Both the position numbers and the translations under genes were made by a program. Below are positions 1 through 46,108 of a stretch of DNA of 53,043 bases, one piece after another (the first letter of the stretch is position 1; each line of letters opens with the position of its first letter). Under the pieces are notes generated by a model. The model searched no databases, had not been told where the DNA came from, and worked only from the letters and a program-made list of their open reading frames with translations. The stretch is from an uncultured bacterium (GTDB lineage Bacteria > Verrucomicrobiota > Kiritimatiellia > PWTM01), in NCBI GenBank assembly GCA_900661335.1, contig CAACVY010000009.1, positions 1 through 53,043 of the forward strand, in the 5' to 3' direction.

Positions 1-286
1 AATGGAAAGAGGTGACGCAATGGCCAACTCGAAGCGGCTCGATGCCCGGCGTTTTGCGAACCTTGCTTGGTTACCGCACACGTCGGGCACTTCAGCGCAG
101 AGCGAGATTGGCCTTCTTCCCTCCTGTCACGCACGCGCATCGGAATGTGTGACACCAACGACCCGACCATGGGCCAGCGGGCGGCGAATGATCGTGGGAT
201 CTTCCACCGCAGAGCACGCCAGCGTTGTGCGCGCGGCTGGTCAATACGCCTCGACTGCGCTAAAGTCCCAACAGGAGATGCCCTGT
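1..286. other. left-edge region without a convincing gene
   Basis: The reading frame of the following secreted protein stays open to the window edge, but the upstream translation is low in hydrophobic structure and resembles no family I know, and the signal peptide begins only at 287. I read this stretch as intergenic or the tail of a neighbour lying outside the window. No promoter or terminator was convincing. Confidence 0.4.
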
Positions 287-1129
287 ATGCGACACGCTCG
301 GATGTGGACAGCAGTCGGTGTGGCGTTGCTGGCTCGGGCAACTTTGGCGGCCCCGGTGATTGAACACACGCCGGTGGATGTGGGTGTCCGCGGCCAGCCA
401 CTGATGATCCGTGCCCGCGTGGATGGGCGGGGGCGGCCGGTCAAAAGCGTGACGCTCTTTTACAGCACGGCCAAAGACGCGGCGCCGTTTTCGGTCCCGA
501 TGCAATCCGGAGGAGCTCAAACTTGGGTCGGCACGATCCCCGGCGGAGTCTCTGCGGCGCTGTCGCAGTTGAGCTACTACATCGCGGCGGAAGACGATCG
601 AGGCGCCACCGCGGAGACGCCATGGTATGTGGTGAAGTTGCAAGAACCTACGGCGACGGGAGCCCCTGCCTCGCAGCCGGCCTGGGTGAAACCGGCGCTG
701 ATCGGCGGGGGAGTTTTAGCGGCCGGAAGCATCGCCGCGGCGGTGATCGCTGCCAATAGCGGCGGGGATGGTGGCAGCGGCGGCCCGAGTCCCGGCGATC
801 TGGCCGGGCAGTACATCGGAACGGTCACGCGATGCCAAGCCTTGTCGGGCGCACCGCCCTCCTGCGAAAGCCATGGCTGCACCATTCGCATCGCCACAGA
901 TGGCACGGTCAGCAGCAGTGACCTTCATCCGGGGCAGTCCATGCAGACCCGCCTGTCTGGCCAAAACTTTGTCCTGACCGCGATCGTACGCGCACCCGGC
1001 CGCGACGGCGAGGTGCGGTATATCGGAACGGTCGTCGGCACACGAATCGTCGGGACGGTAGAAGGGTCCGCAGGCACCGGCACCAACACCGTCGTGTACA
1101 GTGGCACTTTCTCCGCGGTGAAGCAGTAA
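287..1129 (+). CDS. secreted or membrane-anchored hypothetical protein
   Basis: A 280-aa protein of unknown function. The start at 287 was chosen because AGGAG lies 9 nt upstream and the first ~22 residues form a signal peptide (charged MRHAR, hydrophobic core, ALA-type end). Residues ~25-115 look like an Ig-like beta domain about substance geometry such as 'VKSVTLFY', a type often found in secreted PVC and deltaproteobacterial proteins. A Pro/Ala linker leads to a hydrophobic Gly/Ala-rich segment at ~133-155 that is likely membrane-spanning, then a Gly/Ser linker and a C-terminal ~105-aa beta-rich domain with three cysteines. The gene stops 4 nt before the uracil-DNA glycosylase start, so the two may be cotranscribed, although no functional link is evident. 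An in-frame ATG at 278 is a weaker start. Confidence 0.6.
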   Translation: MRHARMWTAVGVALLARATLAAPVIEHTPVDVGVRGQPLMIRARVDGRGRPVKSVTLFYSTAKDAAPFSVPMQSGGAQTWVGTIPGGVSAALSQLSYYIAAEDDRGATAETPWYVVKLQEPTATGAPASQPAWVKPALIGGGVLAAGSIAAAVIAANSGGDGGSGGPSPGDLAGQYIGTVTRCQALSGAPPSCESHGCTIRIATDGTVSSSDLHPGQSMQTRLSGQNFVLTAIVRAPGRDGEVRYIGTVVGTRIVGTVEGSAGTGTNTVVYSGTFSAVKQ

Positions 1130-1133
1130 CGCG

Positions 1134-21485: not shown

Positions 21486-21960
21486 GGTAGGCTCTCCTTG
21501 CGATTTTGCAGAGTGATCGGCACACGCGGACGACAGGAAGAGACCGAGCACCACGGCCCCCACACGCCAGTCCCACCTCACTCGGGCAGCCGCCGCGGGG
21601 AGACATCGCCGGGAACCCCGCGATCCAGGGCCGATGGCATTCGTCGGCGGCCGCCCCGCAGCGCACAGAAGTTCACCAAGCCCACGGACCGTTGCGTACA
21701 TACCTAAATCCATCGTACACCCCAGATCCGCGTGGAACAATCAAGGATGCTTCACCTCGCCGCGGTGGATACCCTGGGTCTTGTCCGCCGGGTGTCGGCA
21801 AGTGTGGACCGGAAATTTCTCACCATCCCGCTGCAGAGACCGCCCGGGATCCCGGGGTTTGTGAGATGCTCTTCACTTTTTCGAACCCCTTCCCACACCG
21901 GTTCGCGGACGATGCCCATCGAGTGACATCCCCGACCGACCCTGGGGGAATCTGGGAACT
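21486..21960. other. intergenic between LhgO-type gene and MEMO1-AMMECR1
   Basis: About 475 nt between two minus-strand genes. Its MEMO-proximal half continues the MEMO frame and encodes a possible lipoprotein signal peptide. No terminator, tRNA or repeat was seen in the rest. Confidence 0.4.
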
Positions 21961-23196: not shown

Positions 23197-24240
23197 TCAC
23201 CGTTGGTAGATCGGTAGGTAGTGATACTTGACGGCAAGTGCGAGCACAGCCATGGACGTGCCATACACACGGCCGGCATTGCGCTCTTCCCCGTGTGGCG
23301 CCTGCCATGAACCATCCTCGTTCTGCTTGGACAGCAAAACTTCTTCCACATTCCTCCGGGAGATCAACGCATCTTCACCGCCTCGCTGGTACATCCCTTG
23401 TGCATAGTAGTAGGTCCCATACAAGAAAAATCGGTCGTTCCAATCGAGTTTTTCCTGGCGCAAGAACGCCGCGGCCGCCTCGACTTCGGGAGCGGTATAT
23501 AGTCCGCAGACCTGCATGGCCAGTAGCCCGTAGGAAGCTGAGGTGTAGGTTGGGCCTCGCCCAGGCTGATACCCACACCCGCCGGCTTTCTGACCGCGAC
23601 GCTCCACTTCCTTGAAGGTTCTCCGCAGATACGCCACAGCTTTCTCAATGGCTTCCTTTGGCACGTCCATGCCCGCGTTTTTGGCAGCCCGCAGCGCCAT
23701 CAGCTGCCAAATCGTCACCGACAAGTCCGAGTCTCGCGAATCGGGTTCGTAACGCCATCCACCGAAGTTCTGCGAGTCATTGCGGTCCTTACGATCCTGG
23801 GACCATAGGATCAACTCGATCGCTTTCTCAAGTCGCGCTTGGATCCGGCGATCGGTCTCGGCGTCAGGGCCCATCCCCAGCAGTTCGGCCAGCGTCAAGG
23901 TGACGATCCCGTGCCCGTACATGCGGGACCCATCCCCGCCGTAGTACCCGTTGGGTCGCTGCTGACCATCCGCCAACAGGTACTCCAAGCCCTTTCGAGC
24001 CATGACCCCAATTGCGTCGGGGGTCCCCGGAGGATGTCCCGTGGCAGCGGCGGCGAGAATCGCCAGAGCCGTCATTGCATGCGGGTTTCCTGCATCCGTG
24101 ATGGCGCCATTCGGCTTTTGTTGACTCGCCAAAAACGCTAACGCGCGGTCCACCGCTTCATCCGTTCGATCCCGAAGCGGCCCAGCTACGACAGCGGTCG
24201 CCCACACACCCACCCATGCAGCTAACCAGCTCCATTTCAT
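23197..24240 (-). CDS. secreted squalene-cyclase/prenyltransferase-repeat protein
   Basis: A 347-aa exported protein: signal peptide at ~1-19, then a tandem alpha-helical toroid of squalene-cyclase/prenyltransferase repeats, visible as repeated Q-x-x-x-G-G/N-W and AL-x-L segments (for example SQQKPNGAI at ~39, NFGGWRY at ~162, KQNEDGSWQAPHG near 305). The active-site DxDD of true terpene cyclases is not evident, so enzymatic cyclase activity is doubtful; related secreted proteins are known only as domains of unknown function. The ATG overlaps the stop of the 1663-aa gene (ATGA), coupling it to the MoxR/VWA operon. Confidence 0.78.
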   Translation of the reverse strand: MKWSWLAAWVGVWATAVVAGPLRDRTDEAVDRALAFLASQQKPNGAITDAGNPHAMTALAILAAAATGHPPGTPDAIGVMARKGLEYLLADGQQRPNGYYGGDGSRMYGHGIVTLTLAELLGMGPDAETDRRIQARLEKAIELILWSQDRKDRNDSQNFGGWRYEPDSRDSDLSVTIWQLMALRAAKNAGMDVPKEAIEKAVAYLRRTFKEVERRGQKAGGCGYQPGRGPTYTSASYGLLAMQVCGLYTAPEVEAAAAFLRQEKLDWNDRFFLYGTYYYAQGMYQRGGEDALISRRNVEEVLLSKQNEDGSWQAPHGEERNAGRVYGTSMAVLALAVKYHYLPIYQR

Positions 24241-27200
24241 GGCACCGACCGTTGAGCCTCCTGCGCCAAAATCTTGAAGTAGAGGTCTACGAGTGCTCGA
24301 TACTCTTCCGGCACGCTTTCGCGATCAGCCTCCCTCATTTCGCGCGCCATCTCCGGAGGCAGTCGCGCCCAATCCTCTGGAATTCGAACCGTGGCATCAC
24401 CTTGCACCTCCGGACCCTCCTGGCCGGCGACATGCGCCGGAGCCCCCTGCGACGGCACGGTCCCAGGTACTTGCCCTTGGGACCGCGCACGCGCCATCGC
24501 GGACTGATGACTCGTCGTGGCCTGGGCCATCGCCTGCTGTGCAGCAGCTTGAGCGGCCTCGGCCATGGCCGCGGGTGTGCTACTCTGCGATTGAGCCGCC
24601 GCATCGAGCTGATCCAACGCCCGCGCTAACCATTCTGCCATCGCCAGCTCGGCAGGATTGCTCACCGGCTCTGACATCGCCGGGGGCATTGCCTCCAAGA
24701 GCGCCGAGAGTTCTTGAGCGCGACGAGAAGCTTCCAGCGCGGCCGTGTCCATCGGCTGCACTGCCCGTGCCGCCTCGGGGGAGCTTGCCATGGCCTGAGC
24801 CGCCTGGGTCATTTCGCCTGCGGCGGTCTGTTGAACCCGTTGTCCAGCCTCCGCCCACTGTTGCCCCACATTACGTTGCAAACGCTGTTGATGCATTCCG
24901 GCTCGCTCAACATCCCGCCCAGCCTCCGCGGCGGAGTGCACCATGCCAGACTGCTCCTGGCCACCTTGTGCCAACGCCGATTGTTCCTGCGCGGCTGTCT
25001 CTCGGAGTGACCGGGCCGTTTCTTCCGCCTGACGTGCGAGCTCCGCAGCGCCTCGGGCCGCTTCCCCTGCGTGCTGAGCAGCGGACCGCGCAGACTCGGC
25101 CACTTCGCTCCGACCGGCTTGACGGGCCGCACTTTCGGCGTTGCCAGCCCGGCGGGCCGCTTCGGTGGCCGACTCAGCCGCCTTGCGCAACGCGTTGGCG
25201 GTTTGTTCCAAGGCGTTGGCGGCGCTGGCCCGATTGGCTGTCTCAATCGAACGCGGAACGGTCTGCGCGGCTTCTGCCAACTGTTGAGCCGCACTCTGCA
25301 GTGCACTTGAAGCCTCCGGAGCGCCCTTGACCGCCTGCTCGGCCGCCGGTTGGACATGGTCTGCAGCGAGTTGCTGAATGGCCTTGGCCAGCTTCGCGGC
25401 CTGCTGCGTCGCCGACTCGGTCGTCGCAGTAGATCTCTGGGCGAGTTCGCGCACTGACTGCGACAACCCGGACTCTCGCTCCGACACTTGCTGCATCCGG
25501 GCCGCCGCGTTGGCCAAAAGTTCTCGCGACAACCGGTCCAATGCCGCTTGCATCGCAGGGTTCTGCTGCAATTCCGCTTCCAATGCCCCCCGCGATAGTT
25601 CCGGCAAATGGCCAGACAAACCTTCGGCCAACCGAGCGGCTCGTTCATACTCTCGTTGGAGCGCGTCCGCGATCCCGGCTTCCACCTCAGCTTGCCGAAG
25701 GTCGGCACGCCGACCTTGCGCGTCTCCTTGCTCGAGCCGTGCAAAATGCTCTGCCAAGGTCTCCAACGAAGACTCGATCTTTTTTTGTTGTCCTGCGGCT
25801 TGATCCAGCGCACCTCGGCGTTCGGCATCCGACGTTGCTTGGTCTGCTCGCCGCAACCAATCCTCCGCCCGCGGTGGCGGCTCCCGGAGCATCGCCAAAC
25901 CATCGTCGGCGTCGCGCGCCCGCTCCCGGCCTTCCTCGGTACGCAGGTCTTGCGCAGCTGCTTCGGCTCGCAATGCCTGGCGAATTTCCTCGAGCCGCTC
26001 GTTGAACTGTTGCTGCTTCGCCAACAAGGGAGCAAGCTCTGGGCCAGACGGGGTCTTTTCCGTGGTCGACTTGGCCGCCTGTTCGGTTTGTTCACGAATC
26101 CGCCGGGCCTCTTCCGCCGCGTGGGCAAGTTGCTGCGACAACGACGGCGCCTGAGCGAGAATCCACTGACGCGAGGGCGTCACCTCTTCGGCCAACCGCG
26201 CTGCCAGAGCCGCAAGCTTCTCCGCAAGCCACCCCACCTCGGCCGCCACGTTTTGACGGCCCGCCACGTCTCGTTGCCGAGCCTGCATCTCCTCATCGGC
26301 CCGCCGCGCTTCCGGCGCCCCATGCGCCGCGTTCAATTCTTGTTGAACCTCAGGGGAGAAACCACGCGCGCGCAACTCCTCGCCCAACTCGGGCAACCCC
26401 GGGTAAATGGCCGACCACTCATGCGCACGCGACCGAACCTGGCGATCGTCGGGTCGCCCCCATCGTTCATGCGCGCCCAAGGTCGCCGTGTGCCGAGCTG
26501 CATCCGACAACGTATACACCGCTGCACTCTTGCGCACGGCCGCGGTCAACGACCGAACCCACTCCAGTGCGGCCCGGGCCGCGCCCTCTTCCTCCCACCG
26601 GGGAGACCACACCTTCAACGCAGACGCCACTACCGTCCACTCGCGAATGCGTTCGCGGTTGGCATCGCGCCGCAGCTCTTCAAAGCTCGCAGCATCCCGA
26701 AACTCCGCGGCGACCGCATCACGGATCTCTTCCAACTCCACTTGGGCCCACCGACGATGACGAGAGTTCGACTGCGCACCGTGCCGCGCTTGGACGACTC
26801 GTTCCAATGTCTCCAACGGTATGGCATCCACGTTCTGCCGGACCAACTCCCGTCGGTGCTCAGCCACCTGCCGTCGAACATTTTCCGAGATCTGCACCAA
26901 TGTTCTGAGCGTCGACTCTACCGTCTCGCGTACCTGTGGTTCCATGGCCCACGCAGGCTGTTCGGGCAAAGCCTCGGGCGTCGGAGCATTTCGCAGCACC
27001 TCTTCAAGCCGGCGGGACATGTCTTTGAATTCGCCCCGTCCAGAGGAGCGCTTTTGAAGCTCGGAGAGCTCCCCCGTAACCGCGCGAAGCCGCTGCGCCA
27101 ACACAGCCTCGCGGCGTGCCAAGAGATCCATTTGCGCACCCGCTGCGCGACTTTTGGCAGACGCCAACCGCGTCAGTTCCCGCTGGGCGTCGGCCAAGTC

Positions 27201-29228
27201 CAGAATGAGCACCTCCACCTGCTCCGCCGCGACCAATGTCGACGAACTCCTCTCCAACCGAGTCGCCGCTTGTACCGCGCGGTCCATTTGCTCATTCGTC
27301 CAACCCGGCACCGGAGATGCATCCGTATCCTCCTTGAACTCCGATGGTCGCGTCAACCAACGATCGAGCAAGCCGAGCTGTTCATGCCGGATCCGAGACA
27401 ACGAACTGGCCAACAAGCTGAGTTCGTTCGCGCGGGCCCCGGCCGGCGTAGAGTCCAAGGCCCGCGTCAAGGTTTGCCTCGCTGTGTCCGCAACCTGAAT
27501 AGCGCGGCGAATCGCCATGACCAGCTGGGCTCGCGCTTGCGCAGTTTCTGGCGCGTTCGCAGACTTGGCGGCCGATGTTCGGTATTTCTCGAGCGCAGCA
27601 CGCGCTTCTTCCACGGCGACTTTTAGCCGTTCCATTGCGGAATGAATCTGCTGCCAAGCCTCTAGGATTCGACGCCGGTCCGGCTCGAAGCCCTCTCCAG
27701 CGATCCAAACCCGGCGCACCGTGGACTCGCCTCGATTCCCCTTCAAATCCTCGGCGACAAATTTGATCAGCACCTGGTCACCCGGTTTCAACTGGAGCGA
27801 GAGCAGATCCCGTACGGTTTCGACCGAGGCCAGGGTGCCGGTGCATGCGACAGGGTCCCCGTCCAGCGTCCACCCCCGCCGAGCGACCTGCAGCATTCGT
27901 TGGACCCGTGCCAAGCCCACGTCATCGCGCGCCTCGGCTCTGAGTCGGAGAATATCGTCCGCTGCGAGCGTCACGTCTTGGGCTGGCTCCACAAACTCTA
28001 CCTGCGGAATCAGATCCGGCACGACTCGCAGTTCGTACACGGGGCGCGCACGGTTTTCGAATCCCGTCCGTGCTGCGACCAGTCGCACCTCGTACATTCC
28101 GGACCGATTTAATTCCAACTCCGTGGCCCAATGATGTGGATCCTCCGGCTCCAACCCTTGCACCACTTCCTCTCCACCGAGCCGCAACCGTAGCTCTGCA
28201 GTCTTCACGGGCTGGTCCACCTCGATCCGCACTCGCACCCGAGTGCCTTCCAGTCCTTCGATATCGCCGTGAGGTTCCTGGACGGTCCGAGGCTTCGACG
28301 GCAAGTACACCGGAGGCGAGTAGGTTTTTTCGAACGCGACGACCTGCGGAGGTGGAACAGCGTCCACCGTGTACCACCGGGTCATGCCGTCCCCTCCGCG
28401 GACTCGGTATCGGAGGGTCGAGTAACGGGCGTCGAGCGATGCGGCGAACCGCCCGCCTCCCAACGGACGCATTCGCAACCGAGCACCGCGACCGTCGGTC
28501 CGCGTTTCTAAGACCGCCTCGTTCACCGGCCGCCCTTCCAGCTGCGCCACAATGGCCACCGCGTCACCGCGGGGGACCGTCAAATCCGGGGGCGAGGGCT
28601 CCAAAATGCGCCAGCGGGTCCGCGATACTCGTTCGATATTCGCCATAGGAAACGCCGCGCGCAATGTTCGTTTCCAACCTTCCAGTCCCGGCAAGGACAG
28701 CAGCAGCGCCAGCAGCACGGCGGAGATCGCCATCCAGCGGAGCCAACGGCGAACGATCTGCGCCGGCAGTAATTCAGCCATGCTCAACGACTGCACTCGC
28801 TCGGCAGCGATTTCTTGGACGCGACGGCGGAACACGGGCGAGTCGAAAGTCTTTGAAGGGTCTTGCGACGCCGCCAGTTCCACCGCCGATAGAACCGTTT
28901 CGCGCAACTCCGGCCTCACGGCTTCGAGCCACTGGGCCAATCGGACCAGATGGACGCTACGCAGGTGTCGACCACACAAACGCCAGAACTCGAACACCGC
29001 CAGTCCGTAGGCCAGCGCCGAGAGCGTGTATCGCCAGGGATCATCTAACACCCACACCGCATCGGCCACTACCAACAACACCAGCATGCCGAGCAACACG
29101 CCCAACGCACCAAACAAACCGCGCCAAATAAGAAGATTTCGCCGCCGACGCCCGAATTCTTTCAGACGAGCGACGATCGCCGGGTGGAGTCCCGCCACTT
29201 CGACCTCACGATCGCGATGCGTGTTCAT
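24237..29228 (-). CDS. giant DUF4175-like membrane protein with coiled coils
   Basis: A 1663-aa inner-membrane protein of unknown function. Three membrane segments (about 33-56, 66-83 and 165-180) precede a large exported region: two beta-rich modules at ~205-500 with Ig-like strands such as VRVRIEVDQPVKTAELRL, then about 1100 residues of heptad-rich, Ala/Gln/Glu-rich coiled coil with Arg (for example 1150-1500), and a conserved-looking tail PEDWARLPPEMAREMR followed by PEEYRALVDLYFKILA. This tail is typical of DUF4175-like proteins encoded with MoxR/VWA genes in PVC bacteria. The ATG has GGAG 7 nt upstream inside the preceding gene (15-nt gap). It could act as the structural scaffold of the system. 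Confidence 0.72.
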   Translation of the reverse strand: MNTHRDREVEVAGLHPAIVARLKEFGRRRRNLLIWRGLFGALGVLLGMLVLLVVADAVWVLDDPWRYTLSALAYGLAVFEFWRLCGRHLRSVHLVRLAQWLEAVRPELRETVLSAVELAASQDPSKTFDSPVFRRRVQEIAAERVQSLSMAELLPAQIVRRWLRWMAISAVLLALLLSLPGLEGWKRTLRAAFPMANIERVSRTRWRILEPSPPDLTVPRGDAVAIVAQLEGRPVNEAVLETRTDGRGARLRMRPLGGGRFAASLDARYSTLRYRVRGGDGMTRWYTVDAVPPPQVVAFEKTYSPPVYLPSKPRTVQEPHGDIEGLEGTRVRVRIEVDQPVKTAELRLRLGGEEVVQGLEPEDPHHWATELELNRSGMYEVRLVAARTGFENRARPVYELRVVPDLIPQVEFVEPAQDVTLAADDILRLRAEARDDVGLARVQRMLQVARRGWTLDGDPVACTGTLASVETVRDLLSLQLKPGDQVLIKFVAEDLKGNRGESTVRRVWIAGEGFEPDRRRILEAWQQIHSAMERLKVAVEEARAALEKYRTSAAKSANAPETAQARAQLVMAIRRAIQVADTARQTLTRALDSTPAGARANELSLLASSLSRIRHEQLGLLDRWLTRPSEFKEDTDASPVPGWTNEQMDRAVQAATRLERSSSTLVAAEQVEVLILDLADAQRELTRLASAKSRAAGAQMDLLARREAVLAQRLRAVTGELSELQKRSSGRGEFKDMSRRLEEVLRNAPTPEALPEQPAWAMEPQVRETVESTLRTLVQISENVRRQVAEHRRELVRQNVDAIPLETLERVVQARHGAQSNSRHRRWAQVELEEIRDAVAAEFRDAASFEELRRDANRERIREWTVVASALKVWSPRWEEEGAARAALEWVRSLTAAVRKSAAVYTLSDAARHTATLGAHERWGRPDDRQVRSRAHEWSAIYPGLPELGEELRARGFSPEVQQELNAAHGAPEARRADEEMQARQRDVAGRQNVAAEVGWLAEKLAALAARLAEEVTPSRQWILAQAPSLSQQLAHAAEEARRIREQTEQAAKSTTEKTPSGPELAPLLAKQQQFNERLEEIRQALRAEAAAQDLRTEEGRERARDADDGLAMLREPPPRAEDWLRRADQATSDAERRGALDQAAGQQKKIESSLETLAEHFARLEQGDAQGRRADLRQAEVEAGIADALQREYERAARLAEGLSGHLPELSRGALEAELQQNPAMQAALDRLSRELLANAAARMQQVSERESGLSQSVRELAQRSTATTESATQQAAKLAKAIQQLAADHVQPAAEQAVKGAPEASSALQSAAQQLAEAAQTVPRSIETANRASAANALEQTANALRKAAESATEAARRAGNAESAARQAGRSEVAESARSAAQHAGEAARGAAELARQAEETARSLRETAAQEQSALAQGGQEQSGMVHSAAEAGRDVERAGMHQQRLQRNVGQQWAEAGQRVQQTAAGEMTQAAQAMASSPEAARAVQPMDTAALEASRRAQELSALLEAMPPAMSEPVSNPAELAMAEWLARALDQLDAAAQSQSSTPAAMAEAAQAAAQQAMAQATTSHQSAMARARSQGQVPGTVPSQGAPAHVAGQEGPEVQGDATVRIPEDWARLPPEMAREMREADRESVPEEYRALVDLYFKILAQEAQRSVP

Positions 29229-29243
29229 GGACCAACTCCGTCA

Positions 29244-32200
29244 CTACGGTAGTCCTCGCCATTTTCGAATCACCCATTCCACAGTCAGCAAAAGAACGAT
29301 CGAAATCAACCACGGCCAACTCCGGGCCAAATGAACCTCCCGTTCTACCACTTGGCCACGACGATAGGGGCGGAGCACTTCGAGCAGTCTGGACAACGAC
29401 TCTTCGGACCATGTCGCCCCGCCGGAAACTGTGGCAATCTGTCGAAGAAGGTCTTCGTTGGCTCGCGGCTCGGCCAGCTCCCCCGCGTCCGGCGCGCGCA
29501 AGGCGACGCGGACCCGGGCGGGCGTGTCACTTTCCGGAACACCGGAGACGGTAACGCGGACTTCGTACTCGCCCTCCGGCAAGGGCTCGGTCTCGGCTCG
29601 GTAGCCACCGTATTCGTCGGCAGCCATCGGCACAACCACCACCCGCCGCCCATCGCGGTAGACAAGGGCTTGCCCGATCGCATTCTCGACCGCCCGACCC
29701 TGTGCATCACGCACTCGAGCACGCACCGCCAGACGACTGCCCGCCGGCTGGACCGGCGGCCCCGCATCCAAGGCCACCCGAGCATCCCGCGCGGCATATG
29801 GCGCCTCCATCACCGCCATCGCCAGCTGGTTCCAAAAGCGAGTGTGTCGCGCTTCGCCGTCCGGACTGCGCCAACGCCAAATCTCATCCATCGCCAAGAG
29901 CGCCACACGGCCCGCTCCGTAGCGTCCGAGCATCATCAGCGGGACCGCACTGCCATCACTTCGCACGCCTTCCAACCATGTGATCACGTCGGGCCGGGGT
30001 TTCCACATCCAGCACACCCGCGGCGGTTCAAGCTCACTCCAGAACGAATCCTCGGGCGTGTCCTTTGCTGCGAGGTTCAACGCGCCGGACTCACGGCCCG
30101 CAGGAGTGCACCGCAACGACGCGACTCCTTCCACGGTGCCGGCTTCCTGGGTGAGTCGTTCCCCGAGTAACAGTGGCCGCAAGGGCGTCTCCTCCAGCCG
30201 CCGGAGTTCTCCTCGCGAGCCATCCAAAAAAATCCAACCGCCACCGCGTTCGCCAACGAAGTCACGTAACCACTCTAAAGAACCGGACGGCCATCGGTCG
30301 GGCGGCACCTCGCCAAAGATCACGAGGTCATAGCCCATCAACGCGTCTCGAGACGCCGGGAACCGGTCCGCACCTTCGCCCATTGGGATGGGTCCGTCGC
30401 CGTACAGAATCGACGTCACCTCCCATTTTTCATCCCGCTGAAAGATGTTGCGAATATATCTGGCCTCCCACCTGGGACGTCCATCCACGTGCAGGATGCG
30501 GTACTTTCGCGTCACGGCAAACACCGAAAACGTGCGTTGGTCGTTCTCGGGAATCTCGTCCCCGTCGGGCAAGGACACCACGGCGCGAAAGTCCAAACGC
30601 ACGCCCGCCGAACGGACGCCGGCGGGCAGTTGCTGTTGGGCGGCCTCTGTGAGATCTTCGATCGCGAACTCGAAGGGCCACGTGCGGCGTCCTTCGCCGG
30701 ACGACACGATGGACTTCTCCCACACGACGCGGTCTCCAGTGACGATCCGTAGAGTAAAAGGACGGCCCGACGGCATGTGGTCCTGAACCACAATCGTCCC
30801 CCGTACGCGATCGCGGTGGTAAACCGATGGCGCCGTGTCCACGCTCACCACAGCGAGATCTCTCGGCGGTCGAGTCGAGCCCATCACTACGGTGAACACT
30901 GGAACGCCTCGCCCACCCAGAACCCGCGCCAACTCGACCGGCGTGGCCCCGTGGTTGTGCCGACCGTCCGTACACAATACCAACACACATCGCGGAGAGC
31001 CGGATGAACGATCCTCCGGCGCCATGGCCTCCAGTCCTTGCCATGCGCGGGAGAGATCGGTAAAACGGCCCGTGGGCGGCGATTGGACCCAGACCGGAAG
31101 CTCTTCGCCCACCTCGGATCCAGCCGGCGTAGACTCCCAAATGCATTCGAGGCGGTCTTCGTGAAGTCCCAACACGCGAACATCGTACGCGCTCGCGAGT
31201 TCGCGTAGAAGCGGGGTACGTCCTCTCCAGAGGTATCCGAGCAACCGTTCCCATCGGGTGGTTCGGTCAAATCGCTCCAGCGCCGCACGAATGGCCGGTC
31301 GCCCTTCCGCGGCCAAAGCTTCCACCCGCTGCAGAAAAACGCGGCGAAGTTCAGCCTCCCATGCCGCGACACGACCGCTCCAAACCGGTGATTCTTTCCA
31401 GGCATTCGGCTCGCCTGCACCGATCGAAGCCACCCAGCGTTCCAAGCCTTGGAAGAGATCCCGCTGCAACGCCTCCTGCACGTTGACCGCACGGTCCGAT
31501 TCGAACGGAACCAGACGGCTCCCTGGGATCGGCGCCTCGACCGTGCCATCCGGCCACTGCCACCGTGCAGCCACATGGGCTTCGCCATTGCCTTCCTTAT
31601 GCAGTACCTCCACATAGTATCGTCGCCCCGCCTCCAATTTGATCCGTCGAGAACGTTGCGAGGGGGTTTGTTCCCACTGTTCTCGGCCCGTCCAACCTTC
31701 CACGTACGCGATGCGACTCTTCTGTTCAGGATCCTCGTTGGGGCTCAGCCACAGTTCACAGCCATCATCCCCGGCGATCCAAAACACGTACTCACCAGAC
31801 ACCGGAGGCACGAGATAGCCGCGCAAACGTTCCCCGTACTGATCGCCCCCGTCCTCGGGCACGGCCAATGCCGTCCTTATCCCTTTCCGATCCGGCGGCC
31901 CCCGAAACTTCGCCGAGCGAGTCAGCTCTTCGACCCGGTCCCCCCCGATACCGTCCCAGCGTTCCCAGGTGACCCCACCGAGCGCGCGCACCCCACTCAG
32001 CCAATCTTCGGGGACGGACTCCATTGCCCGCCGCGCTTGCTCCAAGCGCGCCCGGAGTCGCTCGACCGAAGAAGTCGCGCCTCGCGTGCCCGCGATGTCC
32101 TCCATGAGCCCGCGCACCAAGGCCAACTCATCCGCCACTGTTAATAACTCCATGCCTGGAAGCCCCAAGTCAGTCCAGCCAAGTTCATACGCGGCGAGCA

Positions 32201-32477
32201 GCTTGCGGCCGGGCTCCATCTGCGAGTCTTTCAACGACATGCTCGCGGAGTGATCCAGAACAATTCGCACTTGGAGAGGATTTCCGATCCACCGCCGAAG
32301 CCGCACCACCGGTCCCGCCACCATCAGGCTCAGCGCGATCGCCACTGCAATCCGCGCCCCCATGGCCGTCCACGGCGCCCCGGGCTGTCGTCGGTACAAC
32401 ACGACCGTCGCGGTGACCACCACGACTGCCGCGATCAAGGCACCCCAAACCGTTCCGATGAACTGCAACGACATCAT
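29244..32477 (-). CDS. VWA protein with inserted PA14 domain and GATase-like domain
   Basis: A 1077-aa membrane protein. Two N-terminal helices (~6-28 and 40-58) precede the VWA fold, which opens with MIDAS motif DHSASMS at 75-81. A PA14 domain (about 215-325, with GYLVPPVSGEYVFWIAG and the RRYYVEVLHKEG strand) is inserted before the rest of the VWA fold, which returns near 480-540 as VLVLCTDGRHNHG. A beta module (~560-660) and a glutamine-amidotransferase-like domain (~665-880, GYDLVIFGEVPP) follow, ending in a TM helix at ~1050. PA14 often binds glycans; VWA binds proteins through a metal. The start at 32477 shares ATGA with the BatA-like gene. Confidence 0.78.
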   Translation of the reverse strand: MMSLQFIGTVWGALIAAVVVVTATVVLYRRQPGAPWTAMGARIAVAIALSLMVAGPVVRLRRWIGNPLQVRIVLDHSASMSLKDSQMEPGRKLLAAYELGWTDLGLPGMELLTVADELALVRGLMEDIAGTRGATSSVERLRARLEQARRAMESVPEDWLSGVRALGGVTWERWDGIGGDRVEELTRSAKFRGPPDRKGIRTALAVPEDGGDQYGERLRGYLVPPVSGEYVFWIAGDDGCELWLSPNEDPEQKSRIAYVEGWTGREQWEQTPSQRSRRIKLEAGRRYYVEVLHKEGNGEAHVAARWQWPDGTVEAPIPGSRLVPFESDRAVNVQEALQRDLFQGLERWVASIGAGEPNAWKESPVWSGRVAAWEAELRRVFLQRVEALAAEGRPAIRAALERFDRTTRWERLLGYLWRGRTPLLRELASAYDVRVLGLHEDRLECIWESTPAGSEVGEELPVWVQSPPTGRFTDLSRAWQGLEAMAPEDRSSGSPRCVLVLCTDGRHNHGATPVELARVLGGRGVPVFTVVMGSTRPPRDLAVVSVDTAPSVYHRDRVRGTIVVQDHMPSGRPFTLRIVTGDRVVWEKSIVSSGEGRRTWPFEFAIEDLTEAAQQQLPAGVRSAGVRLDFRAVVSLPDGDEIPENDQRTFSVFAVTRKYRILHVDGRPRWEARYIRNIFQRDEKWEVTSILYGDGPIPMGEGADRFPASRDALMGYDLVIFGEVPPDRWPSGSLEWLRDFVGERGGGWIFLDGSRGELRRLEETPLRPLLLGERLTQEAGTVEGVASLRCTPAGRESGALNLAAKDTPEDSFWSELEPPRVCWMWKPRPDVITWLEGVRSDGSAVPLMMLGRYGAGRVALLAMDEIWRWRSPDGEARHTRFWNQLAMAVMEAPYAARDARVALDAGPPVQPAGSRLAVRARVRDAQGRAVENAIGQALVYRDGRRVVVVPMAADEYGGYRAETEPLPEGEYEVRVTVSGVPESDTPARVRVALRAPDAGELAEPRANEDLLRQIATVSGGATWSEESLSRLLEVLRPYRRGQVVEREVHLARSWPWLISIVLLLTVEWVIRKWRGLP

Positions 32478-34639
32478 GCTGACGCACGCTCCAACACCGG
32501 GCGGGCAAGCCACGCTTCAAGTCCTAGTTCAAGCAACAAGACCACCATGGCCCACCACCAGACCGCTCGCCAAAGCTCTCGGCCATACCGGCGGTGCCGC
32601 TCCGCCGCGAGCCACTCCGCCGCGGTTCGTGCGATCGTGGCGGATGCCTCTGCCGCGACATGGTTCAACTCGGCTTCGCCTAACGGATCGAGATCCGATT
32701 CTTCCGGGGGACGCTGCACCACAAAGTGCATCACTTCACCTCGCGGAGGCCGCAACCAATACACCCCCGGACGCTCGGTGTGCCCAAATTCGGCCAGCCA
32801 ACGGTGGCCTCGCGCTACCAATGGCACCTCATGCACGCTCCCATCGGGCGCGGTCCACACAGGGCGGTCGCCTTCCGTCCCCTCGACGAATGCCGCCAAC
32901 GCCTCCCGTGGTGCCACGTTACGCGGGGGATGGACCGTCGTGCCAAGGTAGATCATGAGTTCTTGCATCAGCGGCACGTAGGCCGGCTTTAAGGGAAGGT
33001 TGCTCCAATCGGCGTCGCATGGAATAGCCATCAGGAGGATCCGACCTGCCCCCAATCGGTGCTCGACCAACCAGGGATCACCTGTCTCCAGCCTCGCCAC
33101 CACGCGTTCCGACAGATCCGAGGGGACATCCAATTGATACCAAGCCCGAATCCGGATGCCTTGGAGCGTGCCACGCCCGGGATCGTTGAATAGCGACAGC
33201 GCAGGATGATAGAACCGCTGAAGACTAATCCCCACGGCCGTTTCTTCCGCGCTCGGAGCTCCCTGCAACGAGACGGGCACGGCCGGCAATAGCCCGGCGT
33301 TCGCCAACGCCGTACGATACCACTCCAAATTGATTCGGTCCCCGGGGCAAATCAACATCCCGCCCCCGTCTTGTACGAACTCCACCAGCGCGCGAAGTTG
33401 TTCCGAGGAACACTGGCGCACGTTGGCCAGCACTACGGCCCGCACGTCCCGTAGCATCGCTGGAGTCCACGTAGACTCTCCCACCGTCCGCGCCTCAATC
33501 CAGTCTGACCGACGACCTCGTCGCTCGCGAGCATACGGTTGAAGGGCCAGTTCCAAGAACGCCGTCTCGCCGCGCAATGGAAGCGGGTTGGGATCCCCGC
33601 TCACCAGCAACACTGCAATTCGGTCCGCAACCAGAATCGCTGCGGCGGCTTCGTTATCTCCTCGGAGGACGTCCTCGCCATCGAACATCGCCTCCACCAA
33701 GTGCGACCCCGCTCGATCGAAGGTCACCGGGAATAGGACCTGCGCAGATTCCCCTGGGGCAAGACGAACCGAAGACATGGTACGCTCGACCTGGTCCACT
33801 TTGAGGCGAATGCGCGCATCCACTGCTCGCCGCCGTCCCCAATTGTGCACCGGGACGCGAAGTTTGGCGGTCTGGTTCACACCGATCACCCCGCGCGGCA
33901 GTTGAATGGGCCCAACCGACACGTTATCGGAGGAACTCGCCGGAACTGGCATCAATACGATTCGAGGCGGCAAAGGTTGGGAAGTCAGCCGACGCCAGGC
34001 CGCACGTCGTTCTTCCGCGCTTTCTGGCCCCCATGAGGTCCGCTGAAAATCGCTCACGATCACTAACAACCGATCTGCGTTCTGCATCCGCTTTTCGAAA
34101 AGTCCGGCGGCCGACTGCAAACTCTCCGCCACCCGTGCCGCGGCGCCGCTACCTTCGATGTCGTCGATCCCGCTCACCCACAGGGCGCGGTCGACGGTCG
34201 GCTCTTCCAACCGTGGGATGGGGGCCGCCATGCCGATCACCGCCAATTCCGAGCCTCGCGGAAGCTCCGATACCAGAGAGCGAGCGGCTTCCTTGGCAGC
34301 GTCGAGCCACGAGCGGCCCGCTTCACTCGTTTCCATCGAAAGGCTGTTATCGAACAACATCACCACCGATGTCGGCGCACGGCCGGCCAGAGAGGACCCA
34401 CGTGTCCACACCGGCCCGGCCATGGCCAGCACCACCAAGCCGATGAGTAGCGTACGCAGGGCTAACAGGAGCCACTGTTCGATCTGGATGCGCCGTCGGT
34501 GGACCCGTAAGAGCTCGTCGAGAAACATCATCGCGCCCCATGGGACGACGCGGAACCGGTGTCGGTGCCATAAATGGATAATCACCGGGATGGCCATGGC
34601 GACCAATCCCGCAAGCAGCGCTGCGTTGACGAACGTCAT
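32474..34639 (-). CDS. BatA-like VWA membrane protein
   Basis: A 721-aa membrane protein of the aerotolerance (Bat) type. The N-terminal BatA segment with two hydrophobic stretches (~8-22 and 58-76) and the typical PxIIHLWHR(H) is followed by a VWA domain whose MIDAS is DNSLSM at 97-102. Residues ~230-340 are a beta domain (CARDB-like), ~345-610 a region with an LLVSGD and GGGMLICPGD pattern like a glutamine-amidotransferase fold, and a last TM near 695-712. VWA domains in this operon type are thought to be clients or adaptors for the MoxR ATPase. Its stop overlaps the next VWA gene by ATGA. Confidence 0.85.
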   Translation of the reverse strand: MTFVNAALLAGLVAMAIPVIIHLWHRHRFRVVPWGAMMFLDELLRVHRRRIQIEQWLLLALRTLLIGLVVLAMAGPVWTRGSSLAGRAPTSVVMLFDNSLSMETSEAGRSWLDAAKEAARSLVSELPRGSELAVIGMAAPIPRLEEPTVDRALWVSGIDDIEGSGAAARVAESLQSAAGLFEKRMQNADRLLVIVSDFQRTSWGPESAEERRAAWRRLTSQPLPPRIVLMPVPASSSDNVSVGPIQLPRGVIGVNQTAKLRVPVHNWGRRRAVDARIRLKVDQVERTMSSVRLAPGESAQVLFPVTFDRAGSHLVEAMFDGEDVLRGDNEAAAAILVADRIAVLLVSGDPNPLPLRGETAFLELALQPYARERRGRRSDWIEARTVGESTWTPAMLRDVRAVVLANVRQCSSEQLRALVEFVQDGGGMLICPGDRINLEWYRTALANAGLLPAVPVSLQGAPSAEETAVGISLQRFYHPALSLFNDPGRGTLQGIRIRAWYQLDVPSDLSERVVARLETGDPWLVEHRLGAGRILLMAIPCDADWSNLPLKPAYVPLMQELMIYLGTTVHPPRNVAPREALAAFVEGTEGDRPVWTAPDGSVHEVPLVARGHRWLAEFGHTERPGVYWLRPPRGEVMHFVVQRPPEESDLDPLGEAELNHVAAEASATIARTAAEWLAAERHRRYGRELWRAVWWWAMVVLLLELGLEAWLARPVLERASA

Positions 34640-34663: not shown

Positions 34664-35563
34664 TCAGGCTCTCCGGCCTCGTCCGCTCAAATAGCTAGCC
34701 AACGCCTCGATGGGCGGTCGGTTCATCACAAAGGTCGCCAGGTCCACACGATGGCGATAACACCCGCGTCGCAGCTCCTCCTGGAACTGCCGGACCCGAG
34801 CCTGGTAAGCTTCCCGCAGCATCGCGGGGTCCACGAACTGCCGGTGTCCCGCCCGTTCGAGCGAGTCAAACCGTACCCATCCGCGAAATGGAAACTCGAG
34901 CTCATCGGGGTGCCAGATCTGCAGGACAAGCACTTCATGGTGCGCATGGCGAAAATGCGCCAGGGCGGAAAGGATATGTGGGACCGAATCGAAACAGTCC
35001 GATAGGATGATCAACAAGCCCCGCCGATGCAGTTGCACGGCCAGGTCATGAAACACTGTGCCCAGCGAGGTTTCCCCGCCGGGTGTGGTGTTCAGAATGG
35101 TCTCCGCCAGTACTTTCAAATGCCCCGGCCGACTACGGGGAGGAATATATTGCCGCAACTGAGTGTCGAACGTTACCAGTCCCACCGCATCGCTCTGCTG
35201 CAACAGAAGCCAACTCAAGCCGGCCGCCATACGTGCCGCGTAGTCGAACTTAGTCAATTCCGAACCATCCCCATAGCCCATCGAGCCACTGGCATCCAGC
35301 AGCAGCATGGCCCGGACGTTCGTTTCTTCTTCGAACTCTCGGATGAAGAACCGGTCGCGACGGCCGAAGAGTTTCCAGTCCAAGCGCCGCAGCTCGTCCC
35401 CCGGCGCATAGGCACGATGCTCCCGGAACTCCACACTGAACCCTTTGTGGGGCGAACGGTGAAGGCCACTGCAGAATCCTTCCACGCGGGTCCGGGTCGG
35501 CACGTGCAAGTTTGAAAGCCGACGAAGGTCGTCCGGACTCAAGAGGCGAGTCACCGCGGTCAC
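34664..35563 (-). CDS. DUF58 domain protein (VWA-like)
   Basis: A cytosolic 299-aa protein of the family always found beside MoxR. Residues ~45-75 carry the DUF58 signature EFREHRAYAPGDELRRLDWK, and the VWA-like fold starts with metal-binding DASGSM at 90-95. It has no TM segments, unlike longer DUF58 proteins. The start is GTG at 35563, with AGGAG nine bases upstream; it begins 12 nt after the moxR stop. Likely the adaptor between MoxR and membrane VWA proteins, but no member of this family has a clear mechanism. Confidence 0.9.
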   Translation of the reverse strand: MTAVTRLLSPDDLRRLSNLHVPTRTRVEGFCSGLHRSPHKGFSVEFREHRAYAPGDELRRLDWKLFGRRDRFFIREFEEETNVRAMLLLDASGSMGYGDGSELTKFDYAARMAAGLSWLLLQQSDAVGLVTFDTQLRQYIPPRSRPGHLKVLAETILNTTPGGETSLGTVFHDLAVQLHRRGLLIILSDCFDSVPHILSALAHFRHAHHEVLVLQIWHPDELEFPFRGWVRFDSLERAGHRQFVDPAMLREAYQARVRQFQEELRRGCYRHRVDLATFVMNRPPIEALASYLSGRGRRA

Positions 35564-35575
35564 GGGCGACGACTC

Positions 35576-36598
35576 CTACAGGACCGGGCCAGCTTCGCGC
35601 TGGGGAATTTCTTGCAAGGCCCGTTCGACAATCGCCACCGTGGTCAGCCCCTCTGCTTCCGCCGCGAAGGTTGGGACGATTCGATGACGCAACACTGGAC
35701 GCGCCAACGCGGCGATATCGTCGATAGTGACGTGGTATCGGCCATGCAACACTGCACGGACCTTGCCTCCGAGGATGAGCATTTGCGAGGCTCGAGGACC
35801 GGGGCCCCATTCGATCCAATCGCGCACAAAGGGTAATGCGTCGGGCTCGCCCGGACGCAACCGGCGAACCAGGTCCAACGCGTAGTCCAACACGTGGTCG
35901 GGCACCGGCACGGCACGCACGAGTTGCTGACACGCAAGGATCTCCTCACCCGTGATGACCGGTTTTAGTTCCACCTCGTGGACGCCGGTCGTCCGCATTA
36001 CGATCTCACGCTCCTGCTCGCGCGTAGGGTACTCCACCCCCACGTGGAACATGAAGCGATCCCGCTGGGCTTCGGGCAACGGATAGGTACCCTCTTGCTC
36101 GATGGGGTTTTGCGTGGCCAGCACAAAGAACGGCTCCTGCAACGCATAGGTTCGGTTGCCGACGGTTACCGAATGTTCCTGCATGGCTTCCAGCAGTGCC
36201 GCCTGGGTTTTGGGCGGCGTGCGGTTGATCTCATCCGCCAGGATCATCTGCGCGAATATCGGGCCGGGTTGAAACACCAACGTGCGATGACCATCCGGGG
36301 TTTCTTGAATGATATCGGTGCCGGTGATGTCGGCCGGCATGAGGTCGGGCGTGAACTGGATCCGCCGAAACGTCAAGTCCATGGTCCGCGCCAGGCCCCG
36401 AACCATCATCGTCTTGGCCAGCCCTGGGACTCCTTCGAGAAGGCAGTGTCCACGGGCCAGGATGGCGATGACCATTTGTTCAATCACCGCCTCTTGGCCG
36501 ACTATAAACCGGGCCAATTCAGTAGTGATTCGCCCATATGCATCGCGAAGCGCCTGCGCACGACGCAGATCTTCCTCTTGAAGTTGCACTTGCTTCAT
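35576..36598 (-). CDS. MoxR-type AAA+ ATPase
   Basis: A chaperone-like hexameric ATPase of 340 aa. Walker A is GVPGLAKT at 56-63, Walker B is ILADEIN at 119-125, sensor 1 in [19 protein letters not shown], and sensor 2 GPGPRASQ near 275, as in family MRP/RavA-like MoxR proteins that insert metals or remodel VWA-domain clients. The start at 36598 has AAGGAG upstream; the reading frame is open 18 codons further but without a ribosome site. First gene of the seven-gene operon, with its own promoter. Confidence 0.95.
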
Positions 36599-36639
36599 TC
36601 GACTCTCCTTGTATGGCTTGAACAGCCGGACAGGTATAG

Positions 36640-36668
36640 AGTATGCCTCCACTATCCGTCCCGGTCAA
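36640..36668 (-). promoter_or_regulatory. promoter of the moxR operon
   Basis: On the minus strand TTGACC (36663-36668), a 17-nt spacer, and CATACT (36640-36645), about 41 nt upstream of the moxR ATG. Hexamer matches are 5 and 4 of 6, and this is the only good match upstream. It would drive the seven co-oriented genes. Confidence 0.55.
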
Positions 36669-39388: not shown

Positions 39389-42300
39389 TCAGTCCTTGAG
39401 CCGCCAACGCAAGCGATAATACCGAACTTGTCCGCTAGTGTCACCTGCGCCGGTCTGCACAGCTTGGACAGCGTTCGTATCCGACGTCGGCGCTACGGCC
39501 ACGGGGGTGGCTTCCACGGGCGTCCACGGGCCTTGGAGGCTGGTGGCCGTCTCGACCCAAACTTCAATGTGCTCGGCCAACCGCTGGATGCCTCGCGCCA
39601 AACGCCACTTGGTTTGCAATAGCGACCCTTCTCGCTTGAGCGACGCGATCTCGAGCAACTGGCCGCATCCAGGCACACTGCTGCGATCCGCGGGATTCGT
39701 CCCTGCAGCCACCTCGAGAATGTCCGGATACCCGTCGCCGTCGGTATCGTGCAAGAGCGGACTGGACCCACGTGCGACTTCAAGACCGTCTGGCACGCCG
39801 TCGCCGTCCGTGTCGCGCAACGAAGGGTTGGTCCCGAGTTGCCGCTCTACACCGTCGGCCAACCCGTCCCCATCCGTGTCGGCCAACCGCGGATTGGTAC
39901 CGAACAACAACACCTCGTCGCCGTCAGAGATACCATCCCCATCGGTATCGGCTACCAACGGATTACTGTCCACAGCGGATTCCAGATACTCTTCAAGGTC
40001 ATTGAGGCCATCCCCATCCATATCGGTCCAACCTCGAACGGGTCCGCGGCCCATACGAGTGAGGGTTCCGGTCAGATAATACTCCCACGCATCCGGCAGC
40101 CAGTCATTGTCCGTATCGCGGTCATGCAGGACAAGTACTTGACCGCTCCGGTTGGCGGGCACCGTCAGAGCCATGGCGTAGTAAGGGGCGCTTCGCGCGG
40201 CGATCATCCCTCTCGACTCCCATGGATCGAGTCGGCCGTTGTTGTTCTGGTCCATGTAGGCTCGCACATAATATGTGCCGGCAGGCAGACCGCGCAGCGT
40301 GAAGGCAACCCGCCCCGCCACTCCTTCGTTGGTGACACTCACCTTCTGGACGACCGCCCGCGCCCAGGCCAGCCCGCCCATATCCCGCTGAGCAAAAGCT
40401 TCGACGGTGATCGTCGGATTGAGAACTTTGCCTTGGTAGAAGACTTCCCCACTGATCTCGTACGGGCCGACCGGACTCGGATCGAGGTTGACCACCAGCG
40501 TACGAGGAGCCGACCAGGCGCCGGCGCCCTGTCCATTCAGGCCACGCGCCTGCCAGGTGTAGATTCCACTGGCATAGATAGGCACGCGCACTCGGTGCAC
40601 TCCATCAGCATCTGCCGCCGGCACCAATTCCAAAGTCCGATATACCACATTGCTGGCCGCATCTCGGACCACCAACTCGTAGCGGACGGAGTTGGTGTGG
40701 AATCGAATCTCCAGCCAATTGACAGTGGACCGCCACACCGTCCCGTCGGCCGTCACCGGCGTGGGCGCGGGCGGCACGCTCAAGTACGGCATCGCAAACG
40801 AACCCTGGGCCAACGCGGGGACTGCGAACGGGGTTTCCCATGCGCGGTACACGAAGTACTGATACGTACTGGCGCCGGACAAACCGTTGGAGTAACCCGC
40901 CGCGATGTAGTCCCCTTCATGGAAAAAGTTCCGATCGAGGACGTAACGATCAATGACCCATCGGCCCGCTCCGTCACGAACAATGACGCGGAACTGATTG
41001 GTCGGTTGCGCTGGCCAAGCGAACCGCCAAAATCCGGGCCGTTGAGTCATCAGGTGGAACGTCAGGTTCACGTCGCTCCAAGTAGACTGAACAACTTCGC
41101 CTTCCGCTAGCGACAGCGGCTCGCCCGGATCCCAGTTCTCGTTGTTGTTCAGATCCTTGAACGCGAGGAACCAGGTTGGTCCGCCGCGGAGCGTCCCAGC
41201 CGAATATCCTTGGGTGTTCAGAGTGAATGGATGTACCGCCGGCACTTGGGCCCCGGGCACAATGATCACGGCATTCGGGGGACCATCCATGCGATTCGTG
41301 CTGTACGCCCAGACCACCATCTGGCCCGCCGGGTTCGTTCCCACGCTCGACTTGAACAGGCTGTGGATGACCGGCACGGGATACGTGGCCGATGAGGCCG
41401 GACTCGGGACGTTCGTGAACGTGCCGTTCGGGAGCGCGGAGGCCAGGAACTCCCACTCGCTGATCCAGCCGTCACCATCCGGATCCAGATGCGAGTCCGC
41501 CACCATCGGATCCAGCACACCCACGAACATGTTCTCGTACGTATCCGGAATCCCGTCCATATCCGTATCCGACCCTAGAATCGGGAAGTGCAAGAACCGG
41601 TTGGTGTACCAGGTGACCCTTCCCACCAACCACGCCGCATGCACCCAACCATTGGTCCACTCGCGTGGCCGCGTGAAGTCTTCGATATATCCTTTATCGA
41701 CGCGAATATCGTCCACGGTGCCCCATAAGCCATCGGGGCCAGGCGAGGCGGATGTGAAATCGTCGAACTTGTAATAAGCCGCCAGACGCGGTTCGGTACC
41801 ACTCAAGCCCATCAAGGACGGCGGCCGGGCTTCGTTCCAAATATGGACCTCGTCGACCAGCCCTCGGAAGCCTTCGCCCACACGCTGGACAAGCGAGGCA
41901 GCATTGGTCAATCCCGACGCGCTGGGGTTGAACACGGTCCCGACGGAGGCCCCGTTGACCCATAGGCGAAGGGTGCGAGTCATATGCTCGTAGGACATGG
42001 CCACATGCGTCCAGTTCGTCACAAACATGCTGGTCGGCCCGAGCGGCTCCAACGGCACCGGCGTGGAGTTCGTCACCGCGATTACGGTGTAGCCGGTGTC
42101 GTACAGAGCGAACGGACGTGCCGCGTCCGTCAACCCGAGGGTCAATGCTTGGTTGACGCCCGTGTTCCAAGTACGCCGATAAATGATCCCACCGTTGCCC
42201 AATGTGTCTGCCGTTGGGCTGATCCACGCCTCAACAGTCAGATCGCCCGTCTGGAACCTGCGTTCAGGATCCTCTGTGGGCACCTGCATATAGGAGCCCG

Positions 42301-46081: not shown

Positions 46082-46108
46082 GGCGTGCTCCTTCACCGCT
46101 CTAGCATT

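Follow-up and report, generated by a model that had tools for sequence, protein, structure and literature searches.

Can a PA14 domain sit inside a von Willebrand factor A (VWA) domain, between strands that belong to a single fold? The question is raised by a minus-strand gene in a 53,043-nucleotide stretch of DNA from an uncultured bacterium of the class Kiritimatiellia, phylum Verrucomicrobiota (contig CAACVY010000009.1, positions 1 to 53,043; this whole stretch is called the window below). A sequence-only reading of its 1077-residue product had proposed that the metal-ion-dependent adhesion site (MIDAS) and a later VWA strand form one fold with a PA14 domain between them, and that this placement at the metal site could couple ligand binding to remodelling by the neighboring MoxR ATPase. 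Our analysis strongly supports the view that the product is a VWA protein anchored in the membrane and encoded in a MoxR-DUF58-BatA operon, that its VWA domain is built from three chain segments and that the PA14 lies in the alpha1 region of this domain, between pieces 1 and 2. The features of the gene are given here in the order of the protein, with residue numbers in parentheses and TM denoting a transmembrane helix:

29244..32477 (-), whole gene, membrane protein of layout TM-TM-VWA(PA14)(GATase1-like)-TM, 1077 residues
32319..32450 (-), two N-terminal membrane helices (within 10-53), from the model helices; compare two_anch in the neighboring BatA
32184..32285 (-), VWA piece 1 (65-98) with strand 69-75, MIDAS motif DHSAS 75-79 and helix 89-98, from model and alignment
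32019..32153 (-), inserted helices A (109-153), from the model; five PA14-less relatives (L010, L011, L041, L040 and L014) have aligned residues up to 156
31497..31985 (-), inserted PA14 module (165-327), from Pfam, alignment, tree and structure matches
31266..31481 (-), inserted helices B (333-404), from the model
30873..31265 (-), VWA piece 2 (405-535) with MIDAS T473, the TDGRHN strand (D504), the helix after it and strand 527-531
29469..30857 (-), second insertion (541-1003), beta-rich segments and a GATase1/ThuA-like domain
29799-30509 (-), the GATase1/ThuA-like domain itself (657-893)
29355..29468 (-), VWA piece 3 (1004-1041), which completes the VWA fold, from structure matches and joined-piece scores
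29259..29318 (-), C-terminal membrane helix (1054-1073), from the model

A full-length AlphaFold2 model of the protein, made from 40 rows, has a mean predicted local distance difference test score (pLDDT) of 90.2 and a predicted template modelling score (pTM) of 0.77. The modelled chain begins with a pair of membrane helices, followed by strand 69-75 and helix 89-98. Helices 109-153, the PA14 strands at 169-324 and helices 333-404 come next, and after them helices 408-430, strands 432-448, a strand at 497-503, helix 513-522 and a strand at 527-531. An extended block, beta-rich and alpha/beta, leads to helices 1008-1018 and 1025-1038 and to a membrane helix at 1054-1073; there are three membrane-type helices in all. 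When the model was compared with known structures by VIA-align, eight VWA entries were among the best 50 listed, with 162-172 residues aligned at Z 13.2-15.3 over ranges running from residue 65 or 67 to 1032-1041; examples are 4hqo (Z 15.3, 172 aligned, 67..1041), 4hql (15.2, 172, 65..1041) and 1rrk (14.7, 169, 67..1036). Such matches give only the first and last aligned residue, and membership of the middle piece is thus a matter of arithmetic: pieces 1 and 3, with 34 and 38 residues, fall short of the 162-172 aligned, and so the middle piece must belong to the VWA match. The block at 657-893 matches GATase1/ThuA-like structures (2gk3, Z 22.1; 3rht, Z 22.0).

No Pfam VWA match was found in the native chain, which an assembly from three pieces would explain. 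Adding piece 3 to joined pieces 1 and 2 raised the Pfam VWA score in all four family members tested: from 17.8 to 23.9 bits in the window protein (cut-off 23.8), from 17.2 to 25.4 in L005, from 23.5 to 37.8 in L034 and from 20.4 to 23.7 in L036. Control segments in place of piece 3, tried in each of these except L036, gave 17.5 and 18.2 bits for the window, 17.3 for L005 and 27.4 for L034. A separate model of L034, a relative without PA14 (pLDDT 87.7, pTM 0.71), matches 4jdu (Z 21.3, 184 aligned, 80..773) and BatB 3ibs (Z 20.6, 188 aligned, 80..776); because this VWA match also ends in the C-terminal segment, the second insertion exists where the PA14 does not. All nine aligned proteins have the same residues at D75, S79, T473 and D504, and the position of S77 holds S or T.

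Based upon the model, a PA14 nested in a three-piece VWA is very probable, and the modelled fold strongly supports two interruptions, one by helices and the PA14 and the other by a block of about 460 residues with a GATase1-like domain. The prediction of one VWA fold around a PA14 was therefore borne out by the model, the VWA matches, the joined-piece scores and the L034 model. Structure prediction, the check proposed with it and run here at full length, completes the VWA across the insertion and does not place the MIDAS and TDGRHN (503-508) strands in separate folds. Two points needed revision: the VWA also requires the C-terminal piece at about 1004-1041 and is thus split twice, and in the model the PA14 is flanked within its insert by helices 109-153 and 333-404.

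The PA14 assignment has several supports. The Pfam profile (PF07691) matches residues 216-316 with 44.8 bits against a cut-off of 24, and structure matches cover the beta-sandwich at about 160-335, led by 6qe7 (Z 16.8, 166..327, root-mean-square deviation 2.3, 134 aligned), followed by 6qdi (Z 16.5) and 6xa5 (Z 14.9, deviation 2.5, 142 aligned). In the model the insert enters the alpha1 region after helix 89-98, not the MIDAS loop itself, and the proposed placement of the PA14 at the metal site is conjectural. Nine close relatives align on both sides of this site, four with PA14 and five without. Over the 32 rows of the family alignment, positions 91-405 hold only 2-3 residues in ten short relatives, in which the two sides are contiguous, 29-195 residues in sixteen other PA14-less rows, and 259-336 in the six that contain the domain. 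The PA14-less relatives share fold and operon and thus represent natural empty sites. Eight fragments that comprise only the PA14 of other proteins fall between 161 and 328 in the alignment, with a few stray residues outside in three. From these alignments we infer that the PA14 probably entered an alpha1 region that already bore an insert. An assembly chimera or chance is ruled out by the same arrangement in five other genomes (G001, G002, G006, G311 and G025), which have close relatives in the same operon type without PA14.

Of 345 genomes from the class, six were found to carry the nested PA14, namely those of the window (G000), G001, G002 and G006, all of one family, and those of G025 and G311 in another. 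The class was searched at E 1e-25 and E 1e-60 and 387 genomes drawn from the phylum at E 1e-50. In the latter, 17 genomes match at that threshold or better, five being already known nested copies, and no further nested copy appeared. Scanning 23 loci from the E 1e-60 class search and the phylum search for the nested type of PA14 gave three positives, all known copies, and a scan of genome contigs gave one relative, without PA14. Six other loci (L003, L016, L018, L025, L026 and L029) match the whole protein through its PA14 part alone. The six nested copies are a lower bound, as many PA14-only matches in other frames were not taken one by one. The G025 copy (L009 / L052:8640-12230) carries one in-frame TAG after the PA14, reflecting decay, assembly error or recoding.

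The nearest kin of the nested PA14, with a best identity of 49%, lie in other open frames from the same class; the modules span about 160 residues each and many of the frames 1,000 to 3,400. Clade A copies are 57-62% identical to the window PA14, as compared with 46-52% for the whole proteins. In a tree of 38 PA14 domains the clade A (four) and clade B (two) copies group at 85/87; in a tree of 43 rows that also takes in distant PA14s, in which the rows L063 and L083 labelled as other are the same domains as two rows from homologues of the downstream 1663-residue protein, the clade B copies fall outside, at 95/84 and 95/82. The protein tree made without the insert, with L009 represented by its N-terminal piece and L037 cut before its frame shift, requires three changes of PA14 presence. 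The trees thus differ on whether the clade A and clade B copies have a single origin.

What the PA14 might bind is suggested by two features of its predicted ligand site:

31593..31595 (-), E295 of a KE motif, aligned with the calcium loop of Flo5 and putatively equivalent to it
31764..31769 (-), D237-D238, the D-D motif of PA14 calcium and sugar sites, from the alignment, its role taken from PMC6650083 and PMC8092209

In known PA14 lectins, consecutive aspartates are reported to hold calcium and sugar (PMC6650083, PMC8092209). The pair is present in all six nested PA14s and in 36 of 38 rows of the alignment overall.

MoxR is a cytoplasmic ATPase, and if the VWA is periplasmic, MoxR cannot touch the PA14 or the VWA directly; any coupling would then have to run through partner subunits or the membrane helices. 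The BatA-type protein BB0173, encoded beside MoxR and DUF58, has three membrane helices in the layout TM-TM-VWA-TM, as does the 1077-residue protein, and its VWA was shown to be periplasmic (PMC5700661). Because BB0173 exposes its VWA there, the periplasm is by analogy also the likely side of the VWA and PA14 here. The proposed direct coupling to MoxR is consequently doubtful, although the count of charges given below leans, if at all, the other way. An extracytoplasmic pair of PA14 domains in the anti-sigma factor RsgI3 is reported to bind pectin (PMC4711584).

The gene is a single open frame at 29244-32513 (-), with a likely ATG start at 32475-32477 that overlaps the BatA stop codon as ATGA; the next gene, which encodes 1663 residues, begins 15 bases past the stop of the 1077-residue gene. 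The minus-strand order is MoxR, DUF58, BatA-type VWA, the 1077-residue VWA gene, the 1663-residue gene and a 347-residue gene, with the first three adjacent, as defines an operon of the BatA/MoxR type. The neighbors are:

35576..36652 (-), MoxR AAA+ ATPase, by Pfam (PF20030, 47.3 bits, cut-off 27)
34664..35563 (-), DUF58 protein, by Pfam, with its own VWA_2 match (36.5 bits)
32474..34639 (-), BatA-type VWA protein with BatA N-terminal domain, VWA_2 and CARDB
24237..29228 (-), 1663-residue protein; DUF4175 matches at 32.6 and 23.5 bits (cut-off 27.3) in two homologues, and PA14 in the homologues of seven other operons
23197..24240 (-), 347-residue protein at the operon end, matching a squalene-hopene-cyclase-type toroid at 28.8 bits (cut-off 26.1)

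The order MoxR-DUF58-BatA-VWA is conserved in 17 of 18 stretches, in one of which MoxR is cut by the contig end; in the remaining stretch, G470, only the VWA gene is visible. A homologue of the 347-residue protein closes the operon in 11 of the 18, and some others stop at a contig end. One frame, in G522 of the same phylum, is identical to the L034 frame (856/856 residues), whose record is placed in Verrucomicrobiota.

PA14 domains also occur in other subunits of this operon. Among 35 genomes holding family members (12 + 23, chosen for holding relatives, six being the nested copies), 13 have a PA14 inside the operon: six in the VWA gene, seven in the homologue of the 1663-residue protein and one in the BatA gene, with G025 having both of the first two kinds. 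This is again a lower bound: a PA14 was scored as absent by reference to the contig that bears the family member, the G074 gene lies at a contig end, and G003 is included with no more than a short family member. The carriers outside the VWA gene are:

L059:10312-16521, L058:86-7291, L057:9828-15323 and L060:3582-8615, homologues of the 1663-residue protein with PA14
L133:9247-17001, L052:12234-17507 and L135:9248-14230, three further such homologues
L132:4983-7991, BatA-type protein of G026 with a PA14 in its C-terminal part (Pfam 81 bits, 670-799 of 1003)

The seven homologues come from G025, G037, G055, G057, G317, G334 and G501. Pfam finds PA14 in six of the seven translated proteins (69.8, 59, 56.4, 44.9, 29.5 and 26.2 bits); the G501 gene was assigned by synteny, its PA14 scoring 71.2 bits in a genome PA14 search. 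No PA14 was found by Pfam in the 1663-residue protein of the window or in the homologues of G001, G013 and L034. By chance about 0.7 PA14 would be expected in 35 operons of 13.5 kb (228 matches in about 161 Mb) as against 14 seen, a comparison that is inflated by related genomes and by the selected genome set. Within a clade of seven relatives that includes G025 and G311, six carry PA14 in the 1663-residue type of protein; the seventh, G311 (L053), shows no such gene downstream within the stretch covered, and its PA14 is instead the nested one in the VWA gene. In the PA14 tree, the nested copies and their kin in large proteins split from the PA14s of the 1663-residue type and BatA at 100/99. 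The six copies of the clade of seven group at 99/95, the BatA copy falls with others at 95/86, and the G501 copy, on a long branch, cannot be placed with confidence. A profile built from the PA14 type of the nested copies and giant proteins misses the PA14s of the 1663-residue type and of the G026 BatA protein, which the Pfam profile detects. These separate groups argue that PA14 has been recruited separately at least twice more in the same operon type.

How might such a protein work? In the reading that we favor, the VWA serves as a frame that presents an exchangeable head for glycan binding on the outer side of the membrane, a proposal to which, as a whole, we give an even chance. Split domains of RTX adhesins hold ligand-binding domains out by both ends (PMC10865825, PMC12077191), and by analogy the VWA would be a split domain that holds the PA14 out by both ends on the periplasmic side. 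A calcium ion coordinated by D237-D238 would let the PA14 bind a glycan, and such a glycan-binding domain on the outer side is slightly more likely than not. Binding might tether or position the BatA/VWA complex at a substrate such as the cell wall, a surface polysaccharide or a glycosylated exported protein, although this recruitment role is only tentatively proposed. Meanwhile, MoxR and the DUF58 protein would act through the membrane proteins from the cytoplasm, and the MIDAS may bind a second protein, perhaps the neighboring BatA or the 1663-residue protein. A bolder extension, which we consider unlikely, is that membrane MoxR-Bat complexes have an exchangeable outward glycan head that outweighs the subunit bearing it, and that in the 1077-residue protein, with its doubly split VWA as a mechanical frame, glycan binding by the PA14 shifts alpha1 and with it the MIDAS to gate the binding of a partner subunit; the separate PA14 lineages in three subunits (the VWA protein, the DUF4175-like 1663-residue protein and BatA) would then indicate that the head matters more than its bearer.

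Several observations weigh against a sugar-binding head on a split, outward-facing VWA. The nested PA14 is present in only 6 of 32 family rows, and the family can thus do without it. Where other PA14s commonly have the Asp of a GDH motif, the copies of the window, G001 and G002 have Ala, and four of the seven PA14s in proteins of the 1663-residue type have lost the D-D pair (DA in G055, SD in G334, KD in G025 and none in G501), which speaks against a universal sugar role for the PA14s of those proteins. Among the joined-piece controls, one of four (L034) also lifted the VWA score, by 3.9 bits, and VWA Z-scores are lower in the PA14 model (at most 15.3) than in the PA14-less model (at most 21.3). 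Finally, lysines and arginines in the first loop and tail together outnumber those in the remaining flanks for 9 of 29 members, equal them in 3 and are fewer in 17, the 29 being the 32 rows minus L009, L037 and L038.

Some of these points lend themselves to other explanations. The alpha1 region could simply be a permissive site, with a PA14 that has a structural role or is neutral and does not contribute to ligand recognition by the complex. This view, which we hold to be rather unlikely though it deserves weight, gains from the range of 2 to 336 residues accommodated over positions 91-405 in the 32 rows, 26 of them without PA14, and from the stop codon in the G025 copy. Nevertheless, every nested copy keeps its D-D pair, the clade A PA14s are more alike than the proteins around them, and PA14 has entered the same operon type separately in other genes, which together weigh against passive insertion. 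The same retention of D-D in six of six nested copies speaks against a PA14 that binds protein instead of glycan and assembles the subunits of the complex; that the pair is lost from most PA14s of the 1663-residue type makes a non-sugar role possible, but for the nested domain we find it unlikely.

Topology and fold offer two further alternatives. If the protein were a cytoplasmic partner of the NorD/ViaA type, its VWA would contact MoxR directly and its PA14 would read a cytoplasmic ligand or stabilize the fold. MoxR proteins typically work with VWA partners (PMC13036017), and the charge count does not favor the periplasmic side. Against this stand the periplasmic VWA of BB0173 in the same layout (PMC5700661) and the DUF58 protein, which, having its own VWA_2 match, would be a better candidate for the cytoplasmic partner of MoxR, and we regard the arrangement as improbable. 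Least of all do we expect PA14 and VWA to be merely in tandem, with the DHSAS and TDGRHN strands in different folds. Although the lack of a Pfam VWA match in the native chain would fit, VWA alignments of 162-172 residues need pieces on both sides of the PA14, and we rejected the tandem arrangement on the basis of the model, the joined-piece scores and the insert-free relatives, ten of which have the two sides contiguous.

The favored picture of a VWA frame with a glycan-binding head has precedents in part. Split VWAs and PA14 domains in split domains are already known, and a PA14 inside a VWA was not found in print among the matches listed from the open-licence literature. The suggestion that this nesting is undescribed agrees with this in the narrow sense, but a VWFA split by another insert (PMC12077191) and a PA14 on a split Ig-like domain (PMC10865825) have both been published. 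In AhLap, an RTX adhesin of Aeromonas hydrophila (PDB 9DAS), a VWFA is likewise interrupted near its middle by an insert that buds out ahead of the closing of the fold, and the authors would class the VWFA as a split domain should the insert prove to bind a ligand; that insert is, however, a single one, a 9 kDa helix and beta-sheet rather than a PA14, in a secreted adhesin (PMC12077191). The 1077-residue chain, by contrast, has no RTX family in its Pfam scan and contains three membrane-type helices. A carbohydrate module beside a VWFA within one adhesin is also in print (PMC12077191). MpIBP, a Marinomonas adhesin (6xa5), also displays a PA14 with a D-D motif from a split domain, but its host fold is Ig-like, in an adhesin of 1.5 MDa (PMC10865825, PMC8092209).

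Comparison with operons of the same kind shows similar partial likeness. BatA and BatB with MoxR and DUF58 (3ibs, 4jdu) are likewise membrane-anchored VWAs beside those genes (PMC5700661, PMC3557215), although the solved VWAs are of about 200 residues and thus are without the PA14 and the GATase1-like insertion. Deletion of all bat genes in Leptospira biflexa is reported to leave growth, morphology and oxidative tolerance unchanged, and an aerotolerance role of Bat proteins is disputed (PMC3557215). The closest PA14 structures among the matches listed are those of RsgI3 (6qe7) and the related 6qdi of Clostridium clariflavum; RsgI3 is likewise a membrane protein with an extracytoplasmic PA14 sensing module, but its PA14s are a C-terminal tandem, it signals to a sigma factor, and the portion of the source available mentions no VWA (PMC4711584). 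MoxR-vWA ternary systems similarly combine a MoxR ATPase and a VWA co-chaperone in one operon, and the available portion of their description mentions neither PA14 nor DUF58 (PMC7159879); in the operon of the window, Pfam detects no beta-propeller component among the six genes.

Membrane MoxR-Bat systems are poorly understood, and the nested PA14 suggests the kind of ligand that they may recognize. The recruited domain points to a testable ligand class, glycans, and to a place to look, outside the inner membrane. It also adds a case of a VWA that would act as a frame for a ligand-binding module, and relatives of the three-piece protein are probably under-annotated.

Elsewhere in the window, a 581-residue open frame at 19995-21740 fuses Memo-like and AMMECR1 domains, and positions 39389-46096 encode a 2235-residue protein with a LamG-type domain and TSP3 repeats.

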